This document shows positions 4,168-47,524 of a DNA stretch of 64,000 nt, in pieces. How positions within the stretch are numbered: position 1 is the stretch's first letter; every line of letters begins with the position of its first letter. Under the pieces are notes generated by a model that was not told the DNA's origin, did not search any database, and worked only from the letters and a program-made list of their open reading frames with translations. The stretch lies in assembly GCF_010728325.1 (NCBI RefSeq), contig NZ_AP022570.1, positions 744,001-808,000 of the forward strand. Reading direction: 5' to 3'. This DNA comes from Mycolicibacterium poriferae (GTDB taxonomy: Bacteria; Actinomycetota; Actinomycetes; Mycobacteriales; Mycobacteriaceae). The position numbers were made by a program, and so were the translations under genes.

Positions 4168-5508
4168 GTGAGCGAACTCCCTGCTGGACGCCACTTCTTC
4201 CGCGATGACGTGGGCTACGAAGAGGCCCGAGCAGCCACCGTGTGGAATGCGCGCACGCCGCAGCGCTGTCCGGACGTCGTGGTGCAGGCCACCGAGACCG
4301 CCGACGTGGTCGCCACGGTCCGGTACGCGCAGCGGCACGGCCTGAAGATCGGTGTCCGTTCCGGCGGGCACAGCTGGGCCGGCAACCACGTCCGTGACGG
4401 CGGGGTGCTCCTCGACGTCAGCCGCCTCGACGGCTGTGCGATCGACGCGTCCTCCCGAACCGCTGTGGTCGGCCCGGGCATGGGCGGCAGTGTGCTGGCC
4501 GGACGGCTGGCGGCGCAGGACCTGTTCTTCCCCGCGGGCCATTGCCAAGGCGTCTGCATCGGCGGCTACCTTCTGCAGGGCGGATACGGCTGGAACAGCC
4601 GCGTGCTCGGGCCGGCCTGCGAGAGCGTGCTGGGCCTCGATGTGGTCACCGCCGACGGGCAGTGCCTGCACATCGACCGGGACAACCACGCCGACCTCTA
4701 CTGGGCGGCGCGCGGTGCCGGCCCCGGCTTCTTCGCAGTGGTCACCGCTTTCCACCTCGAGCTCTATCCGCGGCCGCCCGTCTGCGGCAGCAGTCTCTAC
4801 GTCTATCCGATCGAGCTGGCAGACGAGATCTACCCCTGGGCCCGATCGATCAGCGCGGACGTGGACCGTCGAGTGGAATTGCAGATCGTCGCCTCGCGCG
4901 CCGTCCCCGGCGCCGGCCTGGACACGCCGGGCATCGTGATGGCCTCGCCGGTGTTCGCCGACTCCGAAGCCGAAGCGGCCGCGGCGCTCTCGCTGCTGGA
5001 AACCTGCCCGGCGCGGGAGCGGGCACTGGTCGCGGTGCCGTATGCCCCCGCCGATCTCGACACCTGGTACGCGGGCGTGATGAGCAACTACCCGAGCGGA
5101 TACCGCTACGCCACCGACAACATGTGGACCTCGGCGTCGGCGGACGACCTCATGCCGGGGATCGCCCGGATTCTCGAGACCATGCCCCCGCATCCCGCGC
5201 ATTTCCTGTGGCTGAACTGGGGCCCTTCGCCGCAGCGTCAGGACATGGCCTACAGCCTCGAGGACGACATCTATCTGGCGCTCTACGGCGTGTGGCGCGA
5301 CGCCGCCGACGACGGCGAGTACGCCGGCTGGGCCCGCACCAACATGGCGCAGATGGAACACCTGCAGACCGGAGTGCAGCTGGCCGACGAGAACCTCGGC
5401 GAACGGCCCGCGCCGTTCGCGAGCCCCGAGGCGATGGCCAGACTGGACCGGGTGCGAGCGGACTACGACCCCGACGGCCGATTCCACTCGTGGATGGGGC
5501 GGCCCTGA
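4168..5508 (+). CDS. FAD-linked oxidase, berberine-bridge-enzyme type
   Basis: 446 residues from GTG 4168. The PCMH-type FAD domain is clear: VRSGGHSWAGN carries the histidine normally bonded to the FAD 8-alpha carbon, and AGHCQGVCIGG carries a cysteine in the place of the second (6-S-cysteinyl) flavin bond, followed by GGYGWNSR. The C-terminus ends with the berberine-bridge-like VRADYDPDGRF. Such enzymes oxidise alcohols, sugars or phenolic ring systems with O2. No signal peptide. It overlaps the next gene by one base (TGATG), so the product probably feeds or receives from the PhlG-like hydrolase. Confidence 0.85.
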   Translation: MSELPAGRHFFRDDVGYEEARAATVWNARTPQRCPDVVVQATETADVVATVRYAQRHGLKIGVRSGGHSWAGNHVRDGGVLLDVSRLDGCAIDASSRTAVVGPGMGGSVLAGRLAAQDLFFPAGHCQGVCIGGYLLQGGYGWNSRVLGPACESVLGLDVVTADGQCLHIDRDNHADLYWAARGAGPGFFAVVTAFHLELYPRPPVCGSSLYVYPIELADEIYPWARSISADVDRRVELQIVASRAVPGAGLDTPGIVMASPVFADSEAEAAAALSLLETCPARERALVAVPYAPADLDTWYAGVMSNYPSGYRYATDNMWTSASADDLMPGIARILETMPPHPAHFLWLNWGPSPQRQDMAYSLEDDIYLALYGVWRDAADDGEYAGWARTNMAQMEHLQTGVQLADENLGERPAPFASPEAMARLDRVRADYDPDGRFHSWMGRP

Positions 5509-31659: not shown

Positions 31660-32811
31660 ATGTCCGCAGGACCCTCCCTCGATCCACTCGCCGACGAGTC
31701 GGTGACCCCGCTGGTGCGCAAAACCGCTGCGTGGGCGTGGCGGCTGCTGATCATCCTGGCTGCGGTGGTGGCGCTGGGATGGTTGATCCTGCGGTTGGAG
31801 ATCCTGTTCGTCCCGGTCGCGCTGGCCACGATCGTGGCGGCGCTGCTGATGCCCGTCGTCGACTTCCTGGACCGCCGGGGTGCGCCGCGCAGCGGTGCGG
31901 TCGCGCTGGTGCTGCTCAGCGGGTTCGCGGTGTTCGGTGGGCTGCTGGCGTTCGTCATCACCCAGTTCATCGAGGGCGTACCGGCCTTGGCGGGCCAGGT
32001 CTCGACCAGCATCGAGGGGGTCGGCGCCTGGCTGACCGACGGTCCACTGAAGGTCAGCGAGCAGCAGATCAACCAGTTCCGCGACTCGGCGCTCGAGGCG
32101 CTGCGGGACAACCAGGAACGGTTGACCAGCGGGGCCGTGTCCACCGCAGCCACCGTCACCGAAATCGTCACCGGTGCGCTGCTGATGCTGTTCACGCTGA
32201 TCTTCCTGCTGTACGGCGGCCGCAACATCTTCACGTTCGTCACCGGCGTCGTCCCGACCGGCGTGCGCGCCCGCGTGCGCAACGCCGGCCGCGCCGGATT
32301 CCACACGTTGATCGGCTACGTGCGGGCCACGTTCCTGGTGGCCGCGGTGGATGCGACCGGCATCGGGTTGGGGCTCGCGATCATGGGTGTCCCGCTGGCG
32401 CTGCCGCTCGCATCGCTGGTGTTCATGGGTGCGTTCGTGCCGCTGGTCGGCGCGGTGGTCACCGGGTTCCTGGCCGTCATCGTCGCGCTGATCGCGAAGG
32501 GCTGGATCTATGCGCTGATCACGCTGGGGTTGATCATCGCCGTGCAGCAGCTCGAAGGTCACGTGCTGCAGCCGCTGGTGATGGGCCGCGCGGTGTCGAT
32601 CCATCCGCTGGCCATCGTGCTCGCGATCGCCGGCGGGGCCGTGCTGGCCGGCATCGTCGGCGCCATGCTGGCCGTGCCGGTGCTGGCATTCCTCAACAGT
32701 GCGGTGCGGGTGCTGCTGGCCGACGACCCGGTCGCCGAGGAAGAGGCGCAAGAAGCCGACGACGCCCCGGTGATCGAAGCCGAGCCCGACGACGTGGAGC
32801 AGCTCGAGTAG
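31660..32811 (+). CDS. AI-2E family transporter (Rv0205-like)
   Basis: 383 residues with about eight membrane helices; contains the family pattern [16 protein letters not shown] and [26 protein letters not shown], then [22 protein letters not shown], the conserved AI-2E transporter C-terminal motif. Some members export quorum signals; others are ion antiporters, so the substrate is unassigned. The acidic tail is short. It is followed by a strong hairpin and converges on the first giant gene. Confidence 0.92.
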
Positions 32812-32907: not shown

Positions 32908-35900
32908 CTACATGTTCTGCGCTTGACCTATTCCGATCACGGCGGCGTTGGTGAGTTCGTCGTCGACGCCTCCGCCGACCGTGGTCTGATAGGCGGTGTT
33001 GCCAGGATCGATGATCGGACCACCGATGGCGTTACCGTCGATCTGATAGGTCGCCAGAACAGGATCGGTGGGGTTGTCCGGGTCGATCACCGTGATCTCG
33101 GTGAGGAACCCGCCTGGTTGCAGCGTCTCCGTGGTCACATAGACGATCCCGTTGCTGTCGACGGCCACGATGCTGCCCTGGTTCGGCGGTGAGCCGGCGG
33201 TTTCGAGATCCACCCGGATCGTGGTCGCTGGGTTCTCCGGATCGACGACGGTCAGGCTCGTGGTGTAGACGAATTCACCGTTGACTTCGGTTTCGGTGTT
33301 GATGACGACGTATGCTCTGCCATCCTGTCCGACAACGATGTTGGTCCTATCGAAGATGTCCTCGGTGACAACGCGGCCCTCCAGTTCAACGGCGAAGGAG
33401 GCGCCGGGATTCTGCGGGTCGATCACGACCAACTGCTCGGTGGTGACGGTCTCCGGGAAGCCGCTGAAGTCGGTGACCGTCACACCGGCATAGATGGTGC
33501 CAGTCGGACCGACGAGTACTTGTCCGGTCAGCGCGCCCTCAATCTGGTGGACTAGCGGGTCGCCGGCCTGCGCTGGATCGATCCTCGTGATGTCCGTGAT
33601 CGTCTTCAGGGTGGAGAAGTCGTCGCCCTCGATGAAGATCTCGGCAGACGTCTGATACGCGGCACCGTCCGGCCCGAGAGCGACTCCGTGGAATGGAGAT
33701 CCACCTATCTCGAACTGCGTCGGCGAGCCGGTGACCGGGTCGAGCAGCACGACGTGGGTGGTCGCGGTGTCATCGTCGGCGGTCCACGTGGTGAGATAGA
33801 TGGATCCATCCGGGGCGGAGACAAAACCACCGGAGGGCATTTGCCCCGGACTCTCGGCAACCACCGTCAGCGGATCCGCGGGCGAGGTGATGTCGATCTC
33901 GACGATCTGCACACGTTCGGCACCGAGGGTGGGCACATTGGTCAGGTAGGGAGTCCCGTTGCTCTGGTTGAACATCACCGGTCCGTCGGGATCAATGCCG
34001 GTCAGCGCGAGCATTGCCGGGTCTGAGGTGTTTTCCGGGTCGACGACGACGAGTTGCCCACCCGACAACACATAGGCGGAGCCGTCGGGGCTGATGGACA
34101 GGTCGTCGCTGAAGATGCGGTCGTTGCCGATCAGCACCGTCGAGAATGTCCCCGGGTTCTGCAGGTCGATGACCAGCAGGTTCCCCTCTTGGCTGTCGTA
34201 GTCGAACGTGGTTACGTAGGCGAATCGCTCCGGTGCGAACTTCAGTGTGCTGTCCGCCCCACCTTCGGCCATGTCAACCACGGGATTCTGCGGTACCGAA
34301 CCATCTGGGTTGAGCGCGTACACCGACGTGTGCTGGTTCGAGGTGCCCACGCCGAACACCACCACCTGATAAGCAGTGCCGTCCGGGCCGATCACGGGAG
34401 GAAGATGAGGATCTCCTTCCAGTTCGGCAATTCCTTGCAGCGTCGGTGTTGTGTCCGACTCGGGCTGAGCGGCAACGGGAACGTTGATGGTGGTGCTCGC
34501 GGACAGGCCGTCGGGGTCGGTGGCAGTGACGGTGAAGGCGTCGGCGCCGTCGGGTTCACCGGCTGCCGGCCGGCTGGTGGGGGTGTAGCTGAAGGAGCCG
34601 TCGGGGTTGATGGTGATCGAGCCGTTGCCAGGGTCGTTGGTGACGGTGTAGGCGAGCTGGTCGTCATCGGGGTCGGTGAAGCCCAGTGTTCCGGTGACGG
34701 TACCGGTTTCGGGATCGACGGTCTGTTCGCCGGGGGTCCCGGCCACTGGGGCCTGGTTGTCGGGTTCGGGCAGTGCGACGACGGGGACGTTGATGGTGGT
34801 CATCGCTGACAGGCCGCCGGGGTCGGTGGCGATGACGGTGAACACGTCGGCGCCGTCCTCCTCGCCGAAATCCGGCCGGGTGGCGGGGGTGTAGGTGTAG
34901 GTGCCGTTCACTGCGTCGAACGTGACCGAGCCGTTGGCCGGTTCGGCGTAGACCGTGTAGGTCAGGTCGTCACCGTCGGGGTCGGTGAAGCCCAGAGATC
35001 CCGTGACGGAACCCGTTTCGGGGTCGACGGTCTGCTCTCCCGGAGTACCTGCGACGGGGGCCTGGTTGTCGGGTTCGGGCAGCGCGGTGACGGGAACTTC
35101 GATCCCGATGGTGGAGCTGGCTTGACCGTCGGAGGCGGTGAGCGTGAAGGCGTCGACGCCGTCCTCTTGCCCGAAGGCCGGCCGAGCCTCGGGGTCCGGG
35201 GTGTAGGTGTAGGTGCCGGTTTGGGCGTCGAGGGTGACGGTGCCGTTGGCGGGCGTGGAAACGGTGTAGGTCAGGTCGTCGCCGTCGGGGTCCGTGAAGC
35301 TGAAGGTGGCGGTGACGGCGCCGGTTTCGGGGTCCACGGTCTGCTCGCCGAGGTCCCCGGGAACAGGAGCGTTGTTATCCGGGTCGGGCAGTGCGGTGAC
35401 CGGGACGTCGATGGTGGTGCTGGCGGACAGGCCGTCGGGGTCGGTGGCGGTGACGGTGAAGGCGTCGGCGCCGTCCGGTTCACCGGCTTCCGGTCGGGTG
35501 GCCGGGGTGTAGGTGTAGGTGCCGGCTTGCGCGTCGATGGTGACCGAGCCGTTGGTGGGATCGGTTGCGGTGTAGGTCAGTTCGTCGCCGTCGGGGTCGG
35601 TGAAGCCCAGAGACCCGCTGATCGAACCGGTTTCGGGGTTGACAGTCTGTTCGCCGGGGGTCCCTGCCACGGGCGCTTGGTTGTCGGGCTCGGGGAGCGC
35701 AACGATGGGCAAGCCGATGGTGTTGGTTGCCGTCAGTCCGTCGGGGTCGGAGGCAACCACGGTGAAGGAGTCCTCCCCGTCGGGTTGACCGGGTTCCGGA
35801 CGGGTTTCGGGCGTGTAGGTGTAGGTGCCGGCCTCGTTGTCGACGGTGACGACGCCGTTGTCGGGCTGCTCGGTGACCTCGTAGGTCAGCGGGTCACCGT

Positions 35901-38160
35901 CGGGGTCGGTGAAACCGAGTGCTCCGGTGACCGTGCCGGTTCCGGGGTCGACAGTCTGCTCGCCGGGGGTGCCGGCTTGCGGCGCTTGGTTGCCGGGCTC
36001 GGGCAGTGCGGTGACGGGCACGTCGATGGTGGTGCTCGCGGACAGGCCGGCGGGATCGGTGGCGGTGACGGTGAACGCGTCGGCGCCGTCGGGGTCGCCG
36101 AAGTCGGGTCGGGTGGCCGGGGTGTAGGTGTAGGTACCGGCTGCGGCGTTGAGAGTGACCGACCCGTTGGCGGGGGTGCTCGCGGTGTAGGTCAGGGTGT
36201 CGCCGTCGGGGTCGGTGAAGCCGAGGGTGCCGGTGACGGCGCCGGTTTCGGGGTCGACGGTCTGGGCGCCGGGGGTTCCAGCGACGGGCGCCTGGTTCTC
36301 GGGGTCGAAGGGCTGGCCGTAGACGGTGCGTCCGTCGCCGGGGCCGGTGTCGGCGAGCAGGTTGTTGCCGAAGGTCAACGCGTTGTTGTAGATGCCTGGG
36401 CCGGCGACGGCGCGGGAGTCGTCGCCCCACACGAACGCGGTGTTCTGCTCACCCAGCGCACTTGCGGTACTGCGGTCGCCCCAGACGCGGGCGAGGCTGC
36501 CGGGGCCGTTGGCGGTCGCCGAGCTGCTGTCCCCGGAGATCACGGCCTTGCCGTCGTTGGCTTCCGCGGCGTTGCCGTCACCATACGTGATGGCCTCGGC
36601 GCGGGCTTCGACCGCGTTGGCCGACGCGGCACTGTCATCGCCGGTGATCCGGGCGATCGACGTCTCACCGAGCGCATCACTGGACGCGACGTTGGAATCG
36701 CCGGTGATGCGGGCGGCGGCGTAACCGTCGGCGTCGGCGTCGGCCACCGCGGTGCTTCCGTCGCCGATGATCCGGACCAGGGCGGTGGAATCGTCCTCCG
36801 CCGACGCTGTGGCCGAGTTCTCGTCGCCACGCACCGTGATCTGGGCACGAGACCCGTTGGTGGCCAACACGGTGGCATCGTTGTCGTCGCCGGTGACTGT
36901 GGCGCGGGTGCCGTCTCCGGTGCCGGTGACCGCGTTGCCGACCCCACGGACGTAGATCGAGGTGTAGGCGCCGGTGGTCTCGGCGGTGTTCTGGTCGCCG
37001 TAGATGCTGGCTCGGCTGCCCGGTCCGTCGGCTCCGGCGGTGTTGTCGTCGCCGCGCACCCGCACCCGGGTGAAGTTGCCCTCGGAGGTGGCTGTGGAGT
37101 CATCGCCGCGCACGATGGCGACGTTGAACAGCCCCGAGGCCGATGCGACCGCGTTCTCACCGTGGGCGATCGCAAACGAGCCGAACCCTTGCGAGGTGGC
37201 GTAGGCGGTGCCGTTCTGCACGATCTGGCGTCCGCCGATGGAGATGCTGAAGTTGGCGAAGGTGTCGTCGAGTTCACGGCGCACCCACGACAGCACGCCC
37301 CACATCAACGGCTGCGCCGACGGTGCCGCCGGAGCGGCCGGCGTCGTGACAAACGGGGCGATCACCGCCGAGAGCATCGACGACGCAACCTCGAGGAACG
37401 TGCCCGGCTGGGCCTGCAACGCCTTGGCCGGCGCCTCCGTGATCTCCTCGGTGCTGGTGCGCGCCGACATCACCGACGCCGACGTGTACGACGACCGGGA
37501 GCTGGCCGGTTCAGTGCCGGCGGGTTCGGTGAGCGCGGTCGGGGCAGAGGTGGTCTCGATCGGCTCGGCGGGGGCATCCTCGATGGCCGGCTCCGAATCA
37601 TCAGCCACCACCTCGGGTGCCCCTGTGTCCGGTGCGACCGATCCGCGCGAACCGCCGGAGTCGACCGCGACGTCCTCCACCTCGTCGACCGCCTCATCGA
37701 CGATGGCTTCCGCTGCCTCGTCGGCCTCCTGCTCCTCGATGGCATCGTCATCGCCGCTGGACGACGCATCCTCGTTCTCGAGTTCTTCTTCCAGTTCTTC
37801 TGCGATCTCTTCGCTGAGTTCCGCATCGAGTTCTTCGGCTTCGGTGTCAGTGTCGGTGTCACCATCAGAGCCGTCGTCAGAGGTTGCCGGGGTCTCGTCG
37901 GCGTCCGCCCCCTCAGCCGCCGGGTCGTTTGTCGTTGCGCTCTTGTTCGAGTCGGGCTCACTCGTCGCAGACGATTCGCTCGCCCCCGAGGCACCCTCTG
38001 TTTCGGCGGCCGCCGCCCACGGCGCCACAAAGAGCATCGCGCCAACGCCCAGCGCGGCGGCCAGCCCACCGACGCGGCCGATGCAGTCCGCCGCTGAACG
38101 CGCCCCGCGCGTGGTGGAACCTGTCGAAACGAACGTGTGCCCGAGCCGCTGCTTGCTCAT
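32908..38160 (-). CDS. Giant secreted repeat protein A (GDxN solenoid, six Ig-like repeats, propeller-like end)
   Basis: 1750 residues from ATG 38160 (MSKQRLG), the start shared with its paralogue; an extension to 38214 has no counterpart. Order: twin basic head and signal peptide (about 1-50, ending WAAAAE), acidic Ser/Asp/Glu-rich region (50-220), helical VRRELDDTFANFSI linker near 300, about 15 units of 19-21 residues with GD-x-N/S-x-A (about 320-615), six VCBS/cadherin-like repeats of about 102 residues starting NQAPVAGTPG (about 622-1235), and propeller-like VVDPENP/PDGxxY repeats to the end. No LPxTG, no C-terminal helix. A secreted or surface adhesin is likely; function unknown. Confidence 0.85.
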   Translation of the reverse strand: MSKQRLGHTFVSTGSTTRGARSAADCIGRVGGLAAALGVGAMLFVAPWAAAAETEGASGASESSATSEPDSNKSATTNDPAAEGADADETPATSDDGSDGDTDTDTEAEELDAELSEEIAEELEEELENEDASSSGDDDAIEEQEADEAAEAIVDEAVDEVEDVAVDSGGSRGSVAPDTGAPEVVADDSEPAIEDAPAEPIETTSAPTALTEPAGTEPASSRSSYTSASVMSARTSTEEITEAPAKALQAQPGTFLEVASSMLSAVIAPFVTTPAAPAAPSAQPLMWGVLSWVRRELDDTFANFSISIGGRQIVQNGTAYATSQGFGSFAIAHGENAVASASGLFNVAIVRGDDSTATSEGNFTRVRVRGDDNTAGADGPGSRASIYGDQNTAETTGAYTSIYVRGVGNAVTGTGDGTRATVTGDDNDATVLATNGSRAQITVRGDENSATASAEDDSTALVRIIGDGSTAVADADADGYAAARITGDSNVASSDALGETSIARITGDDSAASANAVEARAEAITYGDGNAAEANDGKAVISGDSSSATANGPGSLARVWGDRSTASALGEQNTAFVWGDDSRAVAGPGIYNNALTFGNNLLADTGPGDGRTVYGQPFDPENQAPVAGTPGAQTVDPETGAVTGTLGFTDPDGDTLTYTASTPANGSVTLNAAAGTYTYTPATRPDFGDPDGADAFTVTATDPAGLSASTTIDVPVTALPEPGNQAPQAGTPGEQTVDPGTGTVTGALGFTDPDGDPLTYEVTEQPDNGVVTVDNEAGTYTYTPETRPEPGQPDGEDSFTVVASDPDGLTATNTIGLPIVALPEPDNQAPVAGTPGEQTVNPETGSISGSLGFTDPDGDELTYTATDPTNGSVTIDAQAGTYTYTPATRPEAGEPDGADAFTVTATDPDGLSASTTIDVPVTALPDPDNNAPVPGDLGEQTVDPETGAVTATFSFTDPDGDDLTYTVSTPANGTVTLDAQTGTYTYTPDPEARPAFGQEDGVDAFTLTASDGQASSTIGIEVPVTALPEPDNQAPVAGTPGEQTVDPETGSVTGSLGFTDPDGDDLTYTVYAEPANGSVTFDAVNGTYTYTPATRPDFGEEDGADVFTVIATDPGGLSAMTTINVPVVALPEPDNQAPVAGTPGEQTVDPETGTVTGTLGFTDPDDDQLAYTVTNDPGNGSITINPDGSFSYTPTSRPAAGEPDGADAFTVTATDPDGLSASTTINVPVAAQPESDTTPTLQGIAELEGDPHLPPVIGPDGTAYQVVVFGVGTSNQHTSVYALNPDGSVPQNPVVDMAEGGADSTLKFAPERFAYVTTFDYDSQEGNLLVIDLQNPGTFSTVLIGNDRIFSDDLSISPDGSAYVLSGGQLVVVDPENTSDPAMLALTGIDPDGPVMFNQSNGTPYLTNVPTLGAERVQIVEIDITSPADPLTVVAESPGQMPSGGFVSAPDGSIYLTTWTADDDTATTHVVLLDPVTGSPTQFEIGGSPFHGVALGPDGAAYQTSAEIFIEGDDFSTLKTITDITRIDPAQAGDPLVHQIEGALTGQVLVGPTGTIYAGVTVTDFSGFPETVTTEQLVVIDPQNPGASFAVELEGRVVTEDIFDRTNIVVGQDGRAYVVINTETEVNGEFVYTTSLTVVDPENPATTIRVDLETAGSPPNQGSIVAVDSNGIVYVTTETLQPGGFLTEITVIDPDNPTDPVLATYQIDGNAIGGPIIDPGNTAYQTTVGGGVDDELTNAAVIGIGQAQNM
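34470..36300 (-). repeat. Six tandem Ig/cadherin-like coding repeats of about 306 bp
   Basis: Six units encode NQAPVAGTPGEQTVDPETG, then LGFTDPDGD and TYTYTPATRPxxGEPDGADAFTVTATDPDGLSAS. The recurring DNA word around GACGGTCTGCTCGCC appears near 34710, 35020, 35330, 35640, 35945 and 36255. Similarity between units is high enough for copy-number change by recombination. Confidence 0.85.
36677..37494 (-). repeat. 818-bp tract shared with giant gene B (copy A)
   Basis: Matches 42880-43697 without gaps (constant offset 6203), with nine mismatches found by eye, about 99% identity, most at third codon positions. It covers residues about 223-495 of protein A: the end of the acidic region, the VRREL linker and roughly half of the GDxN repeats. 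Flanking coding sequence is much more diverged. Confidence 0.9.
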
Positions 38161-38215
38161 CCGAAACCCCCTGTACGGCAACAGCAGGAACGCCTGTATG
38201 ACAGGGCAGTACAAG

Positions 38216-38296
38216 CGAACTCTGCGGAAGCGCTGAAAATTGGCTGTGCATGACGTTAGGCCGAAGCGAACGCACGGGAATCAGGGAAAACCCTAC
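38216..38296 (-). promoter_or_regulatory. Conserved upstream element of giant gene A
   Basis: Aligns without gaps to 44413-44493 upstream of giant gene B, at the same 56-bp distance from the start codon. Two conserved blocks, 38216-38255 (two mismatches in 40) and GGAATCAGGGAAAWCCCTAC at 38277-38296 (one difference), flank a 21-bp diverged spacer. The second block holds the dyad AGGG/CCCT. Read on the minus strand, this is a shared promoter/operator region; sigma class not recognised. Confidence 0.65.
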
Positions 38297-38326
38297 GCGG
38301 GCACCCTCTAGATCGAGGGTGCCCGC
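38297..38326 (-). terminator. Terminator after giant gene B
   Basis: A perfect 12-bp stem, GCGGGCACCCTC with GAGGGTGCCCGC, closes loop TAGATC. It lies about 50 bp downstream of the gene B stop (38376, minus strand) and immediately before the conserved upstream element of gene A, so the two giants appear to be separately transcribed. Confidence 0.8.
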
Positions 38327-38375
38327 GGGGTTGGGTCGCCGTGCGCCGACAGCGGACCGTGGTTCACATGCACTG

Positions 38376-41300
38376 TCAGACGTCTATGGCGGAACCCGCG
38401 ACGCCGATCGTCGTCAGCTGCCGGTTGCGCACACCGTCCTCGACGGTTTCGGTGAGCTGGTAGACCACTCCGTCGGCGCCGATCGTCACCGGCCCGACCG
38501 CTTGCCCCAGGAGGTCGACGACCACGGGGTTGGCGGGGTCTTCGGGGTCGATCACGACCACGTGGGTGAACCACGTGGGGATGAACTCGCGATTGTTGGT
38601 GCCGACGGTCTGATAGGCGGTGCCGTCGGGGGCGATCACCACGGCACCGTCGGGATTGCCCGCCACGTCGATGGTGATGGCGTTCTCCGGCTCGGCCGGG
38701 TCGATCACCGTCACCCGAGTCGCCGAGGGGTAGTCGATGCCGTCGAGGTCGGTCGCCGTGTTGGTCAGGAAGGCGGTGCCGTCCTCGCCGACTCGCAAAC
38801 CGGGGTCGTATCCATTTGTCAGGGAGTAGTTGAAGAACGGGTCGTACTGGGTCCGTTCGACGGTGGCAGGGTTGGCCGGGTCCTCCGGATCGATGATCGT
38901 CACATGCACGGTGTACAGACTCGTGACGCCGCTGTAGCTCGTCTGGTACAGGGTCCCGTCGCCGCCGGTCAGCAGCTCGCCGACCGGGTAGCCGGGTAGG
39001 TCGATGACGGTGGGGGTGGTCGGGTTCGCCGGGTCGATCACCGCAACGTGGAAGAATTTGTCCCCACTGGGGTCGATGGTCCGAAGGCGTTGGTAGACAG
39101 TTCCGTCGGCGCCGATCACCCGGGTCAGGATCTGCTGGCCGGCCAGGTCGACGGTGGTGTAGTTGGTGAGATCCGCCGGGTCGATCACGGTGAGATGCGT
39201 GACGTACTCGTCGGTGCCGGGGGTGCGAGTCTCGCTGAACTGGTAGGCGGTGCCGTCGGGGAAGAACCCCACCGGCTCATCGTGTGTCCCCGGCAGAGCG
39301 ATGACGGTCCGGTTGGTGGGGTCGGTCGGGTCGATCACCGTCACATGGGTTGTGGTGGTGCCGGTTCTGCTGGTCACATACGCGTCGCCGGTGTCGCTGA
39401 AGGTGACCTCTTCTGTCCGGTAGCCGGTGAGCGTGATGGTGACCGGGTTGGTGAAGTCCTGCGGATCGATCAGCGTCACATATGAACGGCTGAAATCACC
39501 GAGGAGTTGGTAGCCGGTGCCTTCGGGACCGAACATCACGGACCCGTCGGGGTCCTCCGTCAGGTCGATCGTGGTCGGATTTGCGAGAGTGCCGAGATCG
39601 AACTTCGTCACGTGGGTGAGGTACCCCGAGGAGAAGCTGCCGGAATAACTGGTCTGGTAGCCGCCTCCGGGACCGAAAACAACCGGCTCGGAAGTGAATC
39701 CGGGCAGTTCGATCGTGATGGCAGCCGCCGGATTCGCCGGGTCGATGACGGTCACGTGGGTGATGTCGTCGCCACCCGATGTGCTGCGGGTGGTCTGGTA
39801 CACCAGCCCGTCGGGACCGATCACCAACGGGTCGGCCGGTTCACCGGTCAGGTCCACGGTGACGGCGCCGGTGGGGGCAGTCGGGTCGATGACCGTCACG
39901 TGGGTGGCGGTGCTTCCGGTTCCGGTGACGAGGTAGGTGGTGTCGCCGTCGAACACGGTGTACTCGAAGCTGCCGGGCACCTCCAGGATGGTGGCCTCGG
40001 CCGGTGCGGACGGATCGATCACCGCCACGTGGGTGACGTCGCCGGCGGTGCTGATCTGATAGGCGGTGCCGTCGGTGCCGAATTGCACTGCATCGGTGGC
40101 GCTGCCGGGCAGCTCGACGGTGATCGCGCTGGTCGGATCGGACGGGTCGACCACCGTCACGTACACGACACCATCGGTCTCGGTCGTCTGGTACGCGAGG
40201 CCGTCGGCCCCGATCACCAGCGGCCCCACCAGTTCACCGGGCAGCTCGACAGTGCCCAGGGCGACTGGGTCGCCGCCGACCGCGTTCACCGTGATGGCGG
40301 CTGTTGCCGTGTCCGTGAGTGCACCGTCGCTGACCGCGTAGGTGAAGCTGTCGGTACCGGCGAAACCGTCGGACGGGGTGTAGGTGAACGTGCCGTCCGG
40401 GCTTAACGACAGGGTGCCGTTTGCGGGTCCGGTGACCAGTTCCGCGGTGAGGCTGTCGCCGTCGACGTCGAAATCGTTCGCCAGCACATTGCCTGTCACG
40501 GCGGCGTTCTCGTTGGTGATGAAAGTGTCCTCGCCGGCGCTGGGCGCATTGTTGTAGGGATCCGCGGAGGGGCCCAGATAGATCACCGACACGGTTTCGT
40601 CGTTGTCGTTGACGACGTAGAGGTGGGTGCCGTCGGCGCTGATCGCCAGTGCATCCGGCCGCGCGCCGACGCTGATCGGATCGCCGATCACGAAGTTGAA
40701 CGTGATGCTGCTCGGGTCGGTGTCGATGACCACCACCTCGCCGTCGAAACCGTTGGCGACATAGGCGCGGGTGCCATCGGGGGTGAACACGAGCGACTGG
40801 GGAAGGTCGCCGACCGGGATCGGATTGCCGATCACCGTGTTGTAGGTGGCGCTCAGCGGATTGGTGTCGATCACCGAGACGGTGTCGTCGCCCGCGTTGA
40901 CCACGTAGGCGCGCGCGCCGTTCGGCGCGATCTCGATGTCGTCGGGTGAGTCCCCGACAGCGATCGGGTCCCCGATGAGAGTGCCGTAACCGTCGCTGTC
41001 GGGGTTGATGTCGAGCACCACCACGGTGTCTGCCCCGGACCTCGGGATCGTGATGTAGGCGCGGCTGCCCTGTGGGGTGAGCGCCAGTGCCCGCGGTGAG
41101 GAGTTCGCGACTCTGATGGGCGTGCCGATCAGCGTGTGGAAGCTGGCGCTGGTGGGGTCGGTGTCGAGTATGACGACGTCGAGGCTGGACTGGTTGAGGA
41201 TGATCGCTCGGGTGCCGTCGGGCGTGAATTCGATGTCGGTGGGGCCGTCGCCGACCTCGATCGGGTCACCGATCACGGTGTTGTAGGTGGCGCTGGCGGG

Positions 41301-44300
41301 GTCGGTGTCGATGACCAGCAGGTGCCCGTTGCCGCCGACGACATTGTCGTAGGCGACGTATGCGCGCAGCCCGTCTGGGCTGATTTCGATCTCCCGCGGG
41401 TTGTAGATGTCGAACGGGATCGTCTGCAGCACCGTGGGGTTGGCGGGGTCGGAGACGTCGATGACAGTCACCGAGGCGTTGTCCTCGTTGAACAGGTTGC
41501 CGCCGTTGACGACGTAGACCCGGGTTCCGTCGGGGGTGACGCTCACCGCGTTGGGGTTCTCGCCGACGTCGACGGTGCCGATCACCGTATTGGGCGGATC
41601 GACAACGGCCGGGTTGACGGTGATTGTCACTGTGGCGGTTTCACTGACGAGTGCACCGTCGGTGGCGGTGTAGGTGAAGGAGTCGGCGCCGGTGTAGCCG
41701 CTGTCAGGGGTGTAGGTGAACGAGCCGTCCGGGTTGAGCACAAAGGAGCCGTTCACCGGGCCGGCACTCAGCACTGCGGTCAGCCCGTCGGACTCGGCGT
41801 CGGTGTCATTGCCGAGAACGCCCGGGCCGGTGACGACCAGCACGGTGTCCTCGTCGACCGAGTAGGTGTCCGGGTTGGCGACTGGCGCGGTGTTACCGGG
41901 TTGGGGGAGGGCGGTGACGGGCACGTCGATGGTGGTGCTCGCGGACAGGCCGGCGGGGTCGGTGGCGGTGACGGTGAAGGCGTCGGTGCCGTTGGGTTCA
42001 CCGGCAGCAGGCCGGGTGGCCGGGGTGTAGGTGTAGGTACCGTCGGTGTTGACGGTGACCGAGCCGTTGCCGGGAGCGGTTGCAGTGTAAGTCAGTTCGT
42101 CGCCGTCGGGGTCGGTGAAGCCGAGTGTTCCGGTGACCGTGCCGGTTTCGGGGTCGACAGTCTGCTCGCCGGGGGTGCCGGCGACGGGGGCTTGGTTGCC
42201 GGGTTCGGGCTGTGCGGTGACGGGCACGTCGATGGTGGCAGTGGCGGTGGCTTGGCCGTCGGAGGCGGTGACGGTGAAGGAGTCGGCGCCGTCGGGATCG
42301 CCGAAGTCGGGTCGGGTGGCCGGGGTGTAGGTGTAGGTGCCGTTGGCGTTGACGGTGACCGAGCCGTTGGCTGGGTCAGTGGTGACGGAGTAGGTGAGGG
42401 TGTCGCTGTCGGGGTCGGTGAAGCCGAGGGTGCCGGTGACGGTACCGGTTTGGGGGTCGACGGTTTGTGCGCCGGGCGCGCCCGCCACCGGAGCCTGGTT
42501 CTCGGGGTCGAACGGCTGGCCGTAGACGGTGTTGCCGTCACCGGGGCCGGTGTCGGCGATGAGGTTGTTGCCCAAAGAGATCGCGGTGTTCCCGGTACCC
42601 GGGCCGGCGATGGCGCGGGAGTCGTCGCCCCACACGAACGCGGTGTTGTCCTCGCCCAGCGCACTGGCCGTACTGCCGTCGCCCCAGACCCGGGCGACGC
42701 TGCCGGGCCCGTCGGCATCGGCAATACTGCCGTCACCGGAGATCACGGCGTTGCCGTCGGTGGCTTCGGCGAAGTTGCTGTCGCCGAAGACGGTGGCCTC
42801 GGCGCGGGCCTGGCTCGCGGTGGCCCAGGCGGCGTTGTCGTCGCCGGTGATCCGGACGATCGACGTCTCGCCCATGGCGTCACTGGACGCGACGTTGGAA
42901 TCGCCGGTGATGCGGGCGGCGGCGTAACCGTCGGCCTCTGCGTCGGCCACCGCGGTGCTTCCGTCGCCGATGATCCGGACCAGGGCGGTGGAATCGTCCT
43001 CCGCCGACGCTGTGGCCGAGTTCTCGTCGCCACGCACCGTGATCTGGGCACGAGACCCGTTGGTGGCCAACACGGTGGCATCGTTGTCGTCGCCGGTGAC
43101 TGTGGCGCGGGTGCCGTCTCCGGTGCCGGTGACCGCGTTGCCGACCCCACGGACGTAGATCGAGGTGTAGGCGCCGGTGGTCTCGGCGGTGTTCTGGTCG
43201 CCGTAGATGCTGGCGCGGCTGCCCGGTCCGTCGGCTCCGGCGGTGTTGTCGTCGCCGCGCACCCGCACCCGGGTGAAGTTGCCCTCGGAGGTGGCCGTGG
43301 AGTCATCGCCGCGCACGATGGCGACGTTGAACAGCCCCGAGGCCGATGCGACCGCGTTCTCACCGTGGGCGATCGCGAATGAGCCGAACCCTTGCGAGGT
43401 GGCGTAGGCGGTGCCGTTCTGCACGATCTGGCGTCCGCCGATGGAGATGCTGAAGTTGGCGAAGGTGTCGTCGAGTTCACGGCGCACCCACGACAGCACG
43501 CCCCACATCAACGGCTGCGCCGACGGTGCCGCCGGAGCGGCCGGCGTCGTGACGAACGGGGCGATCACCGCCGAGAGCATCGACGACGCCACCTCGAGGA
43601 ACGTGCCCGGCTGGGCCTGCAACGCCTTGGCCGGCGCCTCCGTGATCTCCTCGGTGCTGGTGCGCGCCGACATCACCGACGCCGACGTATACGACGAGCG
43701 AGATGGGGCCGTTTCCTCGACCTCGATCATCATCGCCTCGACCGGCGCCGATTCGGGCAGCACCTCAGGCGCGGCCGGCACCGCAGCATCGACGTCCACG
43801 ACCGGCTCGGACTCCGACTCGACGGGACCGCTGCCGCCCCCGGAATCCACGTCCTCCTCCACGGTCACGACCTCGGCCACAGTATCGGCCGCGGTCACGT
43901 CATCGAGATCGACCGGGGCGTCGCCATCGCCTGAAGACGACCCATCCTCCTCCTCGCTGTCGGTGTCGTCCTCGATGTCGTCGAGCTCCTCGCCGAGTTC
44001 TTCGGTGAGCTCGGCCTCGAGATCGCCGTCATCCGAGGAGGATTCCGGCTCAGCATCGTCGGATTCGGTCTCGCCGGCGGACGAGTCGCCTGTCGAATCG
44101 TCGGTGGCCTGTGCCGTCGACGACGACTCGGTCGACTCCGTCGAGCCAGCCTCGGATGTCGAGGACGTGTCGCCGGAGCCTGACGACCCCTCGGCGTCAG
44201 CGGCGGCCGTCCACGGCGCGGCGAACAGCACCGCCCCCACCCCGAGAGAAGCGGCCAACGCCCCGACCCGGCCGATGCACTCCGCCGCCGAACGCGACGA

Positions 44301-44357
44301 CCAGCGCGTGGTGGAACCTGCCGAAACGAACGCCTGCCCGAGCCGCTGCTTGCTCAT
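38376..44357 (-). CDS. Giant secreted repeat protein B (GDxN solenoid, cadherin-like domains, seven-bladed and VIDP propellers)
   Basis: 1993 residues from ATG 44357. Order: signal peptide (about 1-52, ending TAAADA), acidic Ser/Asp/Glu region (52-218), VRREL linker, about 15 GDxN units (about 315-610), two VCBS-like repeats (620-820), a cadherin-like domain (NTAPVANPDTYSVDEDT, 823-920), seven YVTN-type blades (PDGTRAYVVN pattern, about 925-1262), a second cadherin-like domain (1267-1365) and 12-13 repeats of about 50 residues with THVTVIDPxxP and IGPDGTAYQT to the end. No sortase motif or C-terminal membrane helix. Paralogous to protein A but with a different C-terminal domain set. Probable secreted/surface protein. 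Confidence 0.85.
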   Translation of the reverse strand: MSKQRLGQAFVSAGSTTRWSSRSAAECIGRVGALAASLGVGAVLFAAPWTAAADAEGSSGSGDTSSTSEAGSTESTESSSTAQATDDSTGDSSAGETESDDAEPESSSDDGDLEAELTEELGEELDDIEDDTDSEEEDGSSSGDGDAPVDLDDVTAADTVAEVVTVEEDVDSGGGSGPVESESEPVVDVDAAVPAAPEVLPESAPVEAMMIEVEETAPSRSSYTSASVMSARTSTEEITEAPAKALQAQPGTFLEVASSMLSAVIAPFVTTPAAPAAPSAQPLMWGVLSWVRRELDDTFANFSISIGGRQIVQNGTAYATSQGFGSFAIAHGENAVASASGLFNVAIVRGDDSTATSEGNFTRVRVRGDDNTAGADGPGSRASIYGDQNTAETTGAYTSIYVRGVGNAVTGTGDGTRATVTGDDNDATVLATNGSRAQITVRGDENSATASAEDDSTALVRIIGDGSTAVADAEADGYAAARITGDSNVASSDAMGETSIVRITGDDNAAWATASQARAEATVFGDSNFAEATDGNAVISGDGSIADADGPGSVARVWGDGSTASALGEDNTAFVWGDDSRAIAGPGTGNTAISLGNNLIADTGPGDGNTVYGQPFDPENQAPVAGAPGAQTVDPQTGTVTGTLGFTDPDSDTLTYSVTTDPANGSVTVNANGTYTYTPATRPDFGDPDGADSFTVTASDGQATATATIDVPVTAQPEPGNQAPVAGTPGEQTVDPETGTVTGTLGFTDPDGDELTYTATAPGNGSVTVNTDGTYTYTPATRPAAGEPNGTDAFTVTATDPAGLSASTTIDVPVTALPQPGNTAPVANPDTYSVDEDTVLVVTGPGVLGNDTDAESDGLTAVLSAGPVNGSFVLNPDGSFTYTPDSGYTGADSFTYTATDGALVSETATVTITVNPAVVDPPNTVIGTVDVGENPNAVSVTPDGTRVYVVNGGNLFNEDNASVTVIDVSDPANPTVLQTIPFDIYNPREIEISPDGLRAYVAYDNVVGGNGHLLVIDTDPASATYNTVIGDPIEVGDGPTDIEFTPDGTRAIILNQSSLDVVILDTDPTSASFHTLIGTPIRVANSSPRALALTPQGSRAYITIPRSGADTVVVLDINPDSDGYGTLIGDPIAVGDSPDDIEIAPNGARAYVVNAGDDTVSVIDTNPLSATYNTVIGNPIPVGDLPQSLVFTPDGTRAYVANGFDGEVVVIDTDPSSITFNFVIGDPISVGARPDALAISADGTHLYVVNDNDETVSVIYLGPSADPYNNAPSAGEDTFITNENAAVTGNVLANDFDVDGDSLTAELVTGPANGTLSLSPDGTFTYTPSDGFAGTDSFTYAVSDGALTDTATAAITVNAVGGDPVALGTVELPGELVGPLVIGADGLAYQTTETDGVVYVTVVDPSDPTSAITVELPGSATDAVQFGTDGTAYQISTAGDVTHVAVIDPSAPAEATILEVPGSFEYTVFDGDTTYLVTGTGSTATHVTVIDPTAPTGAVTVDLTGEPADPLVIGPDGLVYQTTRSTSGGDDITHVTVIDPANPAAAITIELPGFTSEPVVFGPGGGYQTSYSGSFSSGYLTHVTKFDLGTLANPTTIDLTEDPDGSVMFGPEGTGYQLLGDFSRSYVTLIDPQDFTNPVTITLTGYRTEEVTFSDTGDAYVTSRTGTTTTHVTVIDPTDPTNRTVIALPGTHDEPVGFFPDGTAYQFSETRTPGTDEYVTHLTVIDPADLTNYTTVDLAGQQILTRVIGADGTVYQRLRTIDPSGDKFFHVAVIDPANPTTPTVIDLPGYPVGELLTGGDGTLYQTSYSGVTSLYTVHVTIIDPEDPANPATVERTQYDPFFNYSLTNGYDPGLRVGEDGTAFLTNTATDLDGIDYPSATRVTVIDPAEPENAITIDVAGNPDGAVVIAPDGTAYQTVGTNNREFIPTWFTHVVVIDPEDPANPVVVDLLGQAVGPVTIGADGVVYQLTETVEDGVRNRQLTTIGVAGSAIDV
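42880..43697 (-). repeat. 818-bp tract shared with giant gene A (copy B)
   Basis: Partner of 36677-37494, same orientation, constant offset 6203. The sharp change at 43697 (into the acidic region) and near 42880 (into diverged solenoid units) suggests gene conversion or a recent partial duplication rather than uniform divergence. Confidence 0.9.
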
Positions 44358-44412: not shown

Positions 44413-44493
44413 CGAATTCTGCGGAAGCGCTGAATATTGGCTGTGCATGACGGTAGAGCGCAGGGCCCCCGCAGGAATCAGGGAAATCCCTAC
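44413..44493 (-). promoter_or_regulatory. Conserved upstream element of giant gene B
   Basis: Counterpart of 38216-38296: the same two blocks, the same 21-bp spacer and the same 56-bp distance to the ATG. It fills most of the 194-bp gap after mmpL3. Nothing else recognisable lies in that gap. Confidence 0.65.
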
Positions 44494-44551: not shown

Positions 44552-47524
44552 CTAGAGCCGGCCCTCGCGCCGCAACAACTCCTGAGCGCTGACCCCGCTG
44601 GAGCCGCCACGCCGCTGACGCTCGTCGTCGCCGCGGGTGTTCAGCTTCTCGGTGGCCGCTTCCGCGTCACCGCGCCGGGCCGTCGGGATGGCGCGAGTCT
44701 CCTCGGCGGAGTCGTCCTGCTGCGGTCGGGGCTCGCGCTGGGCCGGGATCGCGGTCGTCGGCTCGTTACCACCGGGCTCGGGCATCGCCCGGGTCGGCTC
44801 CGCCGACGGCGGCTTGGGTTGCGGCGCGACCGGAGCTGCTCCGGTGCCCCGCAGGTCGCCGAGCCAGGACTCGATCTCGCGATCTTCCCGCTTGGGAGCC
44901 GGCGGGGGTGTGGCCCGCGGCGTGCGCTGCGTGACCGCCGTGGCGTTGGTGACGGCGTTGCGTACCGCATCCTTGGCGATGGACAGCCGGGTGGTCTGCG
45001 GCTCCTCAGCCGGAGCCGGCCGGGGCGGGGCGCTCGGCAACCGGCTGGTGCCTGCGGCGGACGGACCGCTGGGCCGCGGGGGCGTCCCGCGGCCGGGGAC
45101 GCCCGGACCGGGATGCGTCGGGTCGTGGGGTTGTACGCGGCCCGACACGGCCACCGGCGGACCGCCGGCACCGACCAGCGCCTCGGGATGGGCCGGCTCC
45201 GCCGGCTGGCTGGGCTCACCGGATTCCCGCACCGACGGGCGTTTGCGCTCGTCGGGCAGCTCGGTCTCGCCGAGGCCGAGCCGGTCCTGGAGGCGCTTCA
45301 TCCAGCGGGGCGCCCACCAGCAGTCGTCGCCGAGCAGCTTCATGATCGCCGGCACCAGGAACATCCGGATGATCGTGGCGTCCAACAGCAGCGCGATCAG
45401 CAGACCGAACGCCAGGTACTTCATCATCACCAGGTCGGAGAACACGAACGCGCCGGCAACCACCGCCAGCACCAGCGCGGCGCCGGTGATGAGACGCCCG
45501 GTGGTGGCGGTGCCGATGCGGATCGCCTCGGCGGTCGACATGCCGCGTTCGCGCGCCTCCACCATGCGGGAGACCAGGAACACCTCGTAGTCGGTGGACA
45601 GACCCCAGATCACCGCGATGATCAGACCGATCATCGGCGCCATCAGCGGCTGGGGGGTGTAGTTCATCAGCCCGGACCCGTGGCCTTCGACGAACATCCA
45701 GGTCAAGATGCCCATCGTCGAGCCGAGGGTCAACGCGCTCATCAACGCGGCCTTGATCGGCAACACCACCGACCCGAACGCCAGGAACATCAGGATCGTC
45801 GTCGTGACGATCAGCACCGTCACCATCAGCGGCAGCTTGTCGAACAGGCTGTGGATGCTGTCCTGTTCCAAGGCGGGCGTCCCGCCCACCGACAGCGTGA
45901 TGCCGCGCGGTGGACTGATGGCCCGCAGCTCGTCGATCTTCTCCGCCGCGTCGTTGCGGTTCACCAGACCGTTCTGGATCACCCGCACCGACGGGTCCTC
46001 CGAACCGCCCTCCTGAACGGATCGCTCCTGCCACATCTTCGTCGGGTCGTTGTCCGGATCGGTGAAGCCGCTGATGTTCATCGCCTTGGACCGGATCTCG
46101 GCCATCTGCTGGTCGGTGACCGGCTCACCGTCGTCGCGCTCGACCACCAGCGTCAGCGGTTCGGTGCGGAAGCCCGGGAAGCTCTGATCGAAGTTCTCCT
46201 GCGCCAACCGGACCGAGTTGTCCGGGGGCAGGTACTTCTCGCTGATGCCGCCCAGGGACAGCTGTCCCAACGGAATCACCAGCAGGATCATCACGATCAG
46301 GATCGGCGCGGCGAACGCGATCGGCCGCTTCATCACGACGTTGACCAGTCGCCCCCAGAAGCCCTTCTCGACCTCCTCGCGGGTCTTGGTCTTCTGCAAC
46401 CGGTCGGCGAGCCAATTGAGCCACCAGTTCATCGGCTTCCAGTTGCGGAAGAACGGCACCCGCAGCAACGTGCGCACGCCGAGCGCGTCGACGTTGCGGC
46501 CCAGGATGCCCAGCGTCGCCGCCAGCACGGTGATCGACAGGATCGACGCCAGCATGACGGAGGCGATGATCGCGTAGGTGATCGACTTCAGGAAGCCCTG
46601 CGGGAACAGCAGCAGCGGCAGCGACGACGCGACGATGATCACCGCGGAGAACATCACCGTGCGGCCGGACGTCATGATGGTGCGGCGCACCGCGGCTTCG
46701 GTGTCGTAGCCCTCCGCGATCTCCTCGCGGAAGCGGCTGACGATGAACAGGCCGTAGTCGATCGCGATGCCGAGGCCGATCAGTGTCACGACCGGTTGGG
46801 CGAAGAAGTGCACGGGCATGAATTCGGCGGCGAAGCGCATCACGCCCAGGGCGCCGGCGATCGTCAGGCCGCCGATGATGGCCGGCAAGCTGGCCGCCAC
46901 CACACCGCCGAAGACGAAGAACAGCACCACCGCGACCAGTGGGATGGCGGCCACCTCGGCGCGCTTCTGGTCCTCGCCGATGGTGCCGGTCAGTTCGCTG
47001 GCCAGCGGGTTGAGCCCGGCGAGTTGGATGTCGCCGTCGTTGACCTTCTTCAGATCCGGTTCGATGGCCTGGTAGTTCTTCAGGATGGTGTCGTCGTCAT
47101 CGCCCTTGAGCGGGATGCTGATGAAGGTCTTGGAATCATCGGCGGTCTTCATCTGCTGAACCTGCGCAGAGTCGGTGTCGGGGGCGCGCAGCCACCCGAC
47201 CCAGCTGACGATCTGGTCCGGATGCTCTTCGACCAGGTCGTTCAGCTCGCCGGTGACCTTCTCCATCCACTGCGGATCGGTGACCTTCTCACCGTCGGGC
47301 GGAGTGAGGATGGCCACCACGTGGCTGGTCCGGTCACGCCCGTAGGCCTCGTCGGAGACCAGGGACGCGTGAACTGATTCACTGCCCTCGTCGTAAAAAC
47401 CGCTCTGTGTGACGTGCTGTCCCAGGCTGATGCCGTAGACGCCGCCGCCCAGGCACAGTGCCACCATGACACCGATAACGATGTATCGGTACTGGTACAC
47501 CGTTCGACCCCACCAGGCGAACAC
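44552..47524 (-). CDS. mmpL3: MmpL3 trehalose-monomycolate transporter
   Basis: 990 residues from GTG 47524 (AGGAG seven bases upstream). The RND layout has 12 helices; proton-relay pairs are in GIAIDYGLFIVSRFREE (near residue 256) and LSTDYEVFLVSRMVE (near 645). Two extracytoplasmic domains and a long Pro/Arg-rich cytoplasmic tail (after about 760) complete it. MmpL3 flips trehalose monomycolate for outer-membrane assembly and is essential in mycobacteria; several drug candidates target it. In the tuberculosis order it follows Rv0205 directly; here the two giant genes intervene. Confidence 0.97.
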   Translation of the reverse strand: MFAWWGRTVYQYRYIVIGVMVALCLGGGVYGISLGQHVTQSGFYDEGSESVHASLVSDEAYGRDRTSHVVAILTPPDGEKVTDPQWMEKVTGELNDLVEEHPDQIVSWVGWLRAPDTDSAQVQQMKTADDSKTFISIPLKGDDDDTILKNYQAIEPDLKKVNDGDIQLAGLNPLASELTGTIGEDQKRAEVAAIPLVAVVLFFVFGGVVAASLPAIIGGLTIAGALGVMRFAAEFMPVHFFAQPVVTLIGLGIAIDYGLFIVSRFREEIAEGYDTEAAVRRTIMTSGRTVMFSAVIIVASSLPLLLFPQGFLKSITYAIIASVMLASILSITVLAATLGILGRNVDALGVRTLLRVPFFRNWKPMNWWLNWLADRLQKTKTREEVEKGFWGRLVNVVMKRPIAFAAPILIVMILLVIPLGQLSLGGISEKYLPPDNSVRLAQENFDQSFPGFRTEPLTLVVERDDGEPVTDQQMAEIRSKAMNISGFTDPDNDPTKMWQERSVQEGGSEDPSVRVIQNGLVNRNDAAEKIDELRAISPPRGITLSVGGTPALEQDSIHSLFDKLPLMVTVLIVTTTILMFLAFGSVVLPIKAALMSALTLGSTMGILTWMFVEGHGSGLMNYTPQPLMAPMIGLIIAVIWGLSTDYEVFLVSRMVEARERGMSTAEAIRIGTATTGRLITGAALVLAVVAGAFVFSDLVMMKYLAFGLLIALLLDATIIRMFLVPAIMKLLGDDCWWAPRWMKRLQDRLGLGETELPDERKRPSVRESGEPSQPAEPAHPEALVGAGGPPVAVSGRVQPHDPTHPGPGVPGRGTPPRPSGPSAAGTSRLPSAPPRPAPAEEPQTTRLSIAKDAVRNAVTNATAVTQRTPRATPPPAPKREDREIESWLGDLRGTGAAPVAPQPKPPSAEPTRAMPEPGGNEPTTAIPAQREPRPQQDDSAEETRAIPTARRGDAEAATEKLNTRGDDERQRRGGSSGVSAQELLRREGRL

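Follow-up and report, generated by a model that had tools for sequence, protein, structure and literature searches.

What are the products of two giant genes that lie in tandem beside mmpL3 in Mycolicibacterium poriferae, and what might control them? To our knowledge, little has been learnt about the proteins that environmental mycobacteria carry on their surface. The window analysed here, a stretch of 64,000 nucleotides, carries gene A (32908-38160, ATG start, 1750 amino acids) and gene B (38376-44357, 1993 amino acids), both giant, predicted to be exported and on the minus strand, as are all their features given below. They are flanked by an Rv0205-like gene on the plus strand (31660-32811) and by a minus-strand mmpL3 homologue (44552-47524), which lies outside the A/B system. 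On balance we favour the reading that A and B are Sec-exported modular proteins of the surface or wall, with a solenoid head, Ig-like spacers and variable propeller ends, under LuxR/MalT control through an upstream site, TAGGGWTTTCCCTGATT.

Modular build of A and B

Both proteins begin with a signal peptide, read by eye from the sequence (A, 38005-38160; B, 44199-44357), followed by an acidic low-complexity stalk (37486-38004 and 43689-44198), a WVRREL linker and a head made of a cap (SISIGGRQIVQNGTAYATS... in A, 37126-37248; 43329-43451 in B) and GDx(N/S) coils (36325-37125 and 42528-43328). The strict GDx(N/S) motif occurred 12 times in the head of A and 13 times in that of B, where 10,000 shuffles per head averaged 0.66 and 0.73 and never gave more than 5. 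The repeat described in an earlier note on this DNA thus stands far above shuffled sequence, but the period of 19-21 residues given for it has to be set a little lower, because the units of A are spaced by 16-21 residues, with 18 in six of 12 intervals. A beta-solenoid had been proposed for the head, and structure prediction agreed: AlphaFold modelled the head of B as a confident solenoid with two strands per 18-21 residues (pLDDT 87.2, pTM 0.84), and the head of A is 91% identical to that of B. The repeat had also been held to be unlike RTX, and the count of the GGxGxD nonapeptide was indeed 0 in both heads; RTX was rejected as its identity, as only weak RTX-type models matched (MARTX_Nterm, E 0.0014 in two of 16 heads).

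Behind the head, A has six Ig-like domains of the Big_9/tandem-95 type (34471-36297) and a C-terminal beta-propeller assigned by predicted structure (32911-34470). In B there are three Ig-like domains (41598-42500), a YVTN-type propeller (40572-41597), a fourth Ig-like domain (40272-40553) and C-terminal propeller-like repeats assigned by sequence comparison (38379-40262). Pfam Big_9 matched six stretches in A and four in B, and both proteins were above the 90-bit cut-off of NF012211 (tandem-95), with 153.8 bits for A and 185.1 for B. The propeller of B is of the YVTN/lactonase type (TIGR02276, 31.5 against a cut-off of 27.85), and further repeated propeller-like units were found in the C-termini of both. 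The C-terminus of A was modelled as a propeller with a pLDDT of 79.6, and a PDB search with this model yielded 311 matches with E no higher than 0.001, whose titles name propellers, though with low TM-scores of 0.15-0.44 among the 50 matches listed. Residues 1266-1987 of B and 1029-1747 of A were 28.6% identical. Comparison of the two sequences bore out the description of tandem giants with the same N-terminus and different C-terminal halves, as well as the Ig-like and propeller build of these halves, and the exported modular build of A and B is supported.

A tract of 750 bp with about 99% DNA identity is common to A (residues 226-475, 36736-37485) and B (residues 224-473, 42939-43688) and covers the linker and the first half of the head. 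In the signal peptide and stalk, DNA identity between A, B and the gene of PO1 was only 61-65%; the mmpL3 gene here and that of PO1 were 96.4% identical. Judged from these alignments, the tract is best read as the product of gene conversion. The idea of a diversified pair holds for the stalk and the C-termini, which have diverged, but not for the linker and the first half of the head. Such a head, kept near-identical in part with the rest diverging, suggests that one part stays constant while the ends change.

The head profile was run beyond the genus, and only one of 76 genera of the order matched; within the genus there were capped-head matches in 108 of 396 genomes, and a contig search gave 12 head loci, all from the Mycobacterium group. 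The capped head is a module of mycobacteria, and no genome searched outside this group had it. Secreted proteins of short length and PPE proteins carry it as well, and a third paralogue in the same genome apparently consists of the head only. Modules have been shuffled in two homologues: that of M. palauense (L042), whose frame stops after the YVTN propeller, and a homologue of B in G085 (59% over 1976 columns), which lies 464 kb from its own mmpL3. No description of the A/B architecture was found in the literature searched, so the claim of novelty stands for the whole, but the Ig-like part passes tandem-95 and one fragment of the head scores above the DUF3060 cut-off.

The upstream site and LuxR/MalT-type regulators

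The site TAGGGWTTTCCCTGATT is present on both genes, as a putative operator at 44476-44492 for B (TAGGGATTTCCCTGATT) and at 38279-38295 for A (TAGGGTTTTCCCTGATT), each accompanied by a conserved 32-nt leader block (44414-44445 for B; 38217-38248 for A, with two differences from the block of B). The genome contains three exact copies, one each for A, B and a head-gene remnant; with two mismatches allowed there were four matches, against one for the reversed control. At up to four mismatches the site was present in 14 of the 17 usable upstream regions of the A/B head group, from seven genomes, and in 0.33% of shuffled upstream regions; at up to one mismatch, 198 genomes gave 27 sites and none for the reversed pattern. 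Weaker sites were seen at the third paralogue (four mismatches) and at L052 and L048 (five), the upstream region of L051 had none, and no short or PPE head locus had the site followed by its own head frame. The site also stands at two genes that look like PE_PGRS on inspection by eye, and 11 of the 27 targets are without identification.

In some relatives the site lies 3' of a LuxR/MalT-type regulator gene and 5' of a giant or PE_PGRS-like gene, the order in some being regulator, in places a small gene, then site and target. Homologues of one LuxR-type regulator were found nearby in L042, L046, L050, L067 (TPR part only), L106, L113 and L129, and a regulator was near four of 14 foreign loci of the A/B head group within the DNA examined. 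The GerE domain was above its cut-off of 23.5 bits in the two regulators tested (L106, 58.3; L129, 52.6), and the L106 regulator also passed TPR_12 (40.9 against 30.1) and matched TPR_MalT below the cut-off (20.1 against 45). Four of five small genes from these cassettes matched the SCO4226-like family below its cut-off (best 22.5 against 28.5), and the fifth gave no match. No LuxR/MalT-type regulator was found in the window at E 1e-5; one with the site lies about 557 kb from A and B in the same genome (G000:C1:1342549-1345305), with only the head-gene remnant in the place of a target. A regulator of this type may act on A and B through TAGGGWTTTCCCTGATT; the ancestors of the pair would once have stood next to such a gene and later moved to the mmpL3 interval, where A and B could still be under its control.

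It is doubtful that TAGGGWTTTCCCTGATT is instead a promoter element, or the site of some other regulator, common to unrelated genes and no LuxR operator. Its presence upstream of a lactate-dehydrogenase-like gene in two of the 27 loci (L112, L127) would fit this alternative, as would the three other LuxR paralogues of the genome that are without a nearby site at up to three mismatches (L143 has one with four). However, in L042, L046, L050, L106 and L113 the site is placed after the regulator, in most cases also after the small gene, and before the target, and it holds the inverted repeat AGGGA-TT-TCCCT. More tentatively than the reading of A and B as regulated surface proteins, we propose an undescribed mycobacterial regulon, in which a MalT-like LuxR protein and a small SCO4226-like partner would bind TAGGGWTTTCCCTGATT and switch an interchangeable cargo for the surface, made up of solenoid giants, further modular proteins with a GRVG signal and PE_PGRS proteins, the capped solenoid being a module specific to mycobacteria and exported through both Sec and type VII (PPE). 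If true, a module common to Sec-type giants and PPE proteins, together with an upstream site common to such giants and PE_PGRS-like genes, would offer a handle on the control and function of these surface families.

Possible function and the mmpL3 interval

As Sec-exported modular proteins, A and B would be located at the cell surface or in the cell wall, with a rigid beta-solenoid head, then Ig-like spacers and then C-terminal propellers as variable, probably ligand-binding ends, and they may mediate attachment or recognition there. We think it rather unlikely that they are structural cell-wall or biofilm-matrix proteins with no specific ligand, in which solenoid, Ig-like domains and propellers build long rods only. 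The single enzyme family above cut-off on the pair, a generic Lactonase propeller in B, and the apparently head-only third paralogue would agree with such rods, but the C-terminal halves of A and B differ, and beta-propellers are common binding platforms.

The pair had been described as separating the homologues of Rv0205 and mmpL3, genes that we take to be adjacent in M. tuberculosis; this position is real, yet looks incidental. Both markers were on one contig in 87 of 98 genomes of the genus, this one included, and the distance from the mmpL3 fragment (amino acids 560-760) to the Rv0205 match was below 1 kb in 75 of the 87 and 12.4 kb here. Relatives whose interval was read have other genes in it, and it seems to be a place that tolerates insertions. 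No link of A and B to mmpL3 was found in the interval content, the relatives or the NF048007 profile. A joint action with MmpL3, the propeller of B acting like the MmpL3/TtfA stabiliser MSMEG_5308 (Rv1057), is very improbable: the genes adjoin mmpL3 and NF048007 matches in B, but with 26.9 bits against a cut-off of 600, and B scores higher with the model of hydrazine synthase beta (89.8 bits). A far better NF048007 match, itself below the cut-off, lies elsewhere in the same genome, at C1:4996049 (323.4 bits, against 29.7 for B), most relatives have no room for such a gene in the interval, and the B homologue of G085 is remote from mmpL3. That A and B deliver contact-dependent toxins or effectors, as giant size, repeat stalk and variable C-termini could suggest, can hardly be maintained given propeller-like C-termini, no toxin family at curated cut-off on either protein, and matches of Stx2A (11.4 bits against 736) and MARTX_Nterm that look like chance. 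With the preferred reading of A and B as regulated surface proteins, a little-known mycobacterial surface-protein family and its control become testable.

Comparison with known families

Tandem-95 (Big_9) giants and large bacterial adhesins resemble A and B in their tandem Ig-like domains, but A and B differ by having a WVRREL linker and a mycobacterial solenoid head ahead of these domains, and by the propeller C-termini. The repeat partially matches DUF3060 (PF11259), which scored 30.4 on a fragment of the B head (its first 150 residues) against a cut-off of 23.1, and below that cut-off on the whole proteins (A, 20.2; B, 18.8). Six of 16 heads matched it at E up to 1. Of seven longer pieces of heads or giants, one gave a match when E was limited to 0.1, and its score was under the cut-off; a genus scan for DUF3060 found three other places in this genome, A and B not among them. 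YadA-type heads and curlin are short-period beta-solenoids, and the G-x-x-N-x-A of the heads presumably resembles curlin. A viral fold search gave YadA-like and curlin-labelled phage models at E 0.07-0.12. The YadA head was rejected (YadA_head, E 0.23 in one of 16 heads), with E values up to 1 allowed, A and B matched no Pfam family of trimeric C-terminal membrane anchors and Curlin_rpt matched none of the 16 heads, and Q-x-G-x-x-N-x-(A/V) occurred in neither the A nor the B head.

The PPE and PE_PGRS proteins are alike in module and site: the capped repeat is also present on part of the PPE proteins, and the upstream site at the two genes read as PE_PGRS. A and B differ from them by a Sec-type signal peptide, read by eye, and have no PE or PPE N-terminus. 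The genes Rv2488c to Rv2490c presumably follow in this order in M. tuberculosis. In BCG, according to a published account, PE_PGRS43b (BCG_2509c) lies two locus tags from the LuxR regulator BCG_2507c (Rv2488c) (PMC9912546), a likeness in gene position to the present cassette, in that a LuxR gene stands near a PE_PGRS gene.

Architecture and predicted folds of A and B

The two neighbouring genes A (32908-38160, minus strand, 1750 aa) and B (38376-44357, minus strand, 1993 aa) encode proteins with 69% identity over A 1-940. The strict GDx(N/S) motif was counted 12 times in the A head and 13 times in the B head, and 10,000 shuffles of each reached five at most. The regular repeat described in the earlier note was found, with a measured spacing (16-21 residues, 18 the commonest) slightly below the unit of 19-21 residues given there. 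RTX nonapeptides were absent from the head by motif count, in agreement with the proposed difference from RTX repeats. Pfam returned the six Ig-like repeats expected in A as Big_9 stretches and four such stretches in B, which also carries a YVTN/lactonase-like propeller (Pfam and NCBIfam).

AlphaFold was applied to the B head aligned with ten relatives. The beta-solenoid suggested earlier was supported for the B head, which was modelled as a regular solenoid (mean pLDDT 87.2, pTM 0.84) with strands mostly 9-11 residues apart, and therefore two strands per 18-21-residue unit. The head gave no match to solved structures by sequence and none by Foldseek at E 0.001, and VIA-align grouped it with generic beta-helices. 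The C-terminus of A (aa 1228-1750) was modelled as all-beta (pLDDT 79.6). Judged by E-value, Foldseek paired this model with propellers in the PDB, at low TM-scores; the C-terminus of B could be aligned to that of A by sequence comparison.

A near-identical tract and the mmpL3-Rv0205 interval

The DNA encoding A aa 226-475 and B aa 224-473 is about 99% identical. Upstream of this tract the identity is 59-68% (85% in the first 40 codons), and downstream it is 76-90% in the next windows and then lower. A homologue in Mycobacterium sp. PO1 adjoins the mmpL3 gene of that strain, which is 96.4% identical to mmpL3 of the window genome. Downstream of the tract, A is closer to the PO1 homologue than to B (0.88 vs 0.83 in head C, 0.88 vs 0.79 in Ig2, 0.93 vs 0.61 in Ig3). 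Within it, A and B are 0.99 identical, more than either is to PO1 (head 0.77-0.78, linker 0.93-0.94), and in the signal peptide and stalk all three pairs lie at 0.61-0.65, A-B being marginally highest. From these comparisons inside, upstream and downstream of the tract, the near-identity is read as probable gene conversion of A and B with each other, later than the split from PO1.

Measured from an mmpL3 fragment (aa 560-760) to the Rv0205 match, the two markers were less than 1 kb apart in 75 of the 87 genomes with both on one contig. The insert is another secreted Ig and repeat giant in G018 (L064 928-4545), a 577-codon frame in G085, which we take from its resemblance to be an HNH/DUF222-type endonuclease, and a 307-codon frame in G039; inserts also occur in G037 (masked sequence) and G082. 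In G050, G088 and G092, 15-17 kb separate mmpL3 from the nearest Rv0205-like match. A match to an MmpL3 stabiliser (PMC6593404) was set aside as generic. The inserts differ among the genomes read, and we conclude that the interval is probably a permissive site.

Elsewhere in the window, ARAGORN called a 95-nt tRNA-Cys at 5317-5411 (minus strand), but no Rfam family reached its gathering score anywhere in this stretch; the call is probably false.

Distribution of the head module

These searches scored a subset of the candidates in every genome, so the following counts, which include the own genome, may be low: the B head as sole query matched at least 27 of 198 genus genomes (E <=1e-3), a 16-row head profile, with all rows from the genus of the window genome, matched at least 108 of 396 at 1e-8, and an order-wide search matched at least 15 of 298 at 1e-6, all within one of 76 genera. 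When genome_contigs was scanned with a pattern, 12 loci were returned, every one from the Mycobacterium group. The module is found by itself in shorter frames of about 250-960 codons, in WVRREL giants and in PPE proteins. The locus L015 has a PPE domain at 177.2 bits (cut-off 26), and its capped repeat aligned with the B head far better than shuffled sequence did, at z 12.8 for the cap and 14.8 for the head, with z <=2.5 for three other B stretches as control. A third paralogue in the own genome, a 951-codon frame near C1:670 kb, is apparently head only. From the module types and the occurrence of the head in PPE proteins too we infer that A and B would be exported, surface-located and involved in attachment.

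The upstream site and the LuxR-type regulator

The element TAGGG(A/T)TTTCCCTGATT is common to the upstream regions of A and B, as is a 32-nt leader element; the B copy contains the inverted repeat AGGGA-TT-TCCCT. The own genome has three exact copies, one for each of the two genes and one at G000:C1:1345664, and a scan with 2 mismatches found four sites vs one with the reversed control. Ahead of the third exact site stand a LuxR-type gene, with a frame of 919 codons, and a small SCO4226-like gene that uses the TAG of the site as its stop codon. The site falls within a 75-codon frame whose last 50 or so codons, directly after the site, are the end of a head gene, and is read as part of a gene remnant (L106 1501-1708, equal to G000:C1:1345664-1345871). 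The own genome encodes three more close LuxR paralogues, and no site at <=3 mismatches lies near any of them; one of the three, a LuxR/MalT-type gene starting just beyond the window end (L143 2268-5042), has a 4-mismatch site only.

Among 18 upstream regions of the head group, 14 of the 17 usable carried the site at <=4 mismatches; these 14 regions, some of them near-duplicates, come from seven genomes. The short and PPE head loci showed no site with a head frame after it. At <=1 mismatch, the 198 genomes held 27 sites spread over 19 genomes, and none of the reversed pattern. Targets, taken by eye as the first downstream frame, were assigned for 16 of the 27: nine proteins, A, B and G085b included, that begin like a signal peptide, two PE_PGRS-like proteins (by eye), one each of the remnant, a small secreted protein and the small gene beside LuxR, and two that are presumably lactate-dehydrogenase-like. 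The last two (L112, L127), each behind a one-mismatch site, match each other. A similar site and similar-looking frames are common to L109, L110, L117, L122 and L123. Regulator homologues were found near L042, L046, L050, L067 (where the available sequence spans the TPR part only), L106, L113 and L129, with the small gene near all of these except L042; the regulator was seen in four of 14 foreign head-group loci (12 from the genome_contigs scan, two of G085). In L139 (G030), a stretch of ~5 kb surrounding a single LuxR-type gene contains five site-like matches (0-4 mismatches).

The most economical model would place a family of modular surface proteins under LuxR control; one portion of their rod may stay uniform while stalk and ends diverge. 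In BCG, the locus tags of a LuxR gene and of PE_PGRS43b differ by two (PMC9912546).
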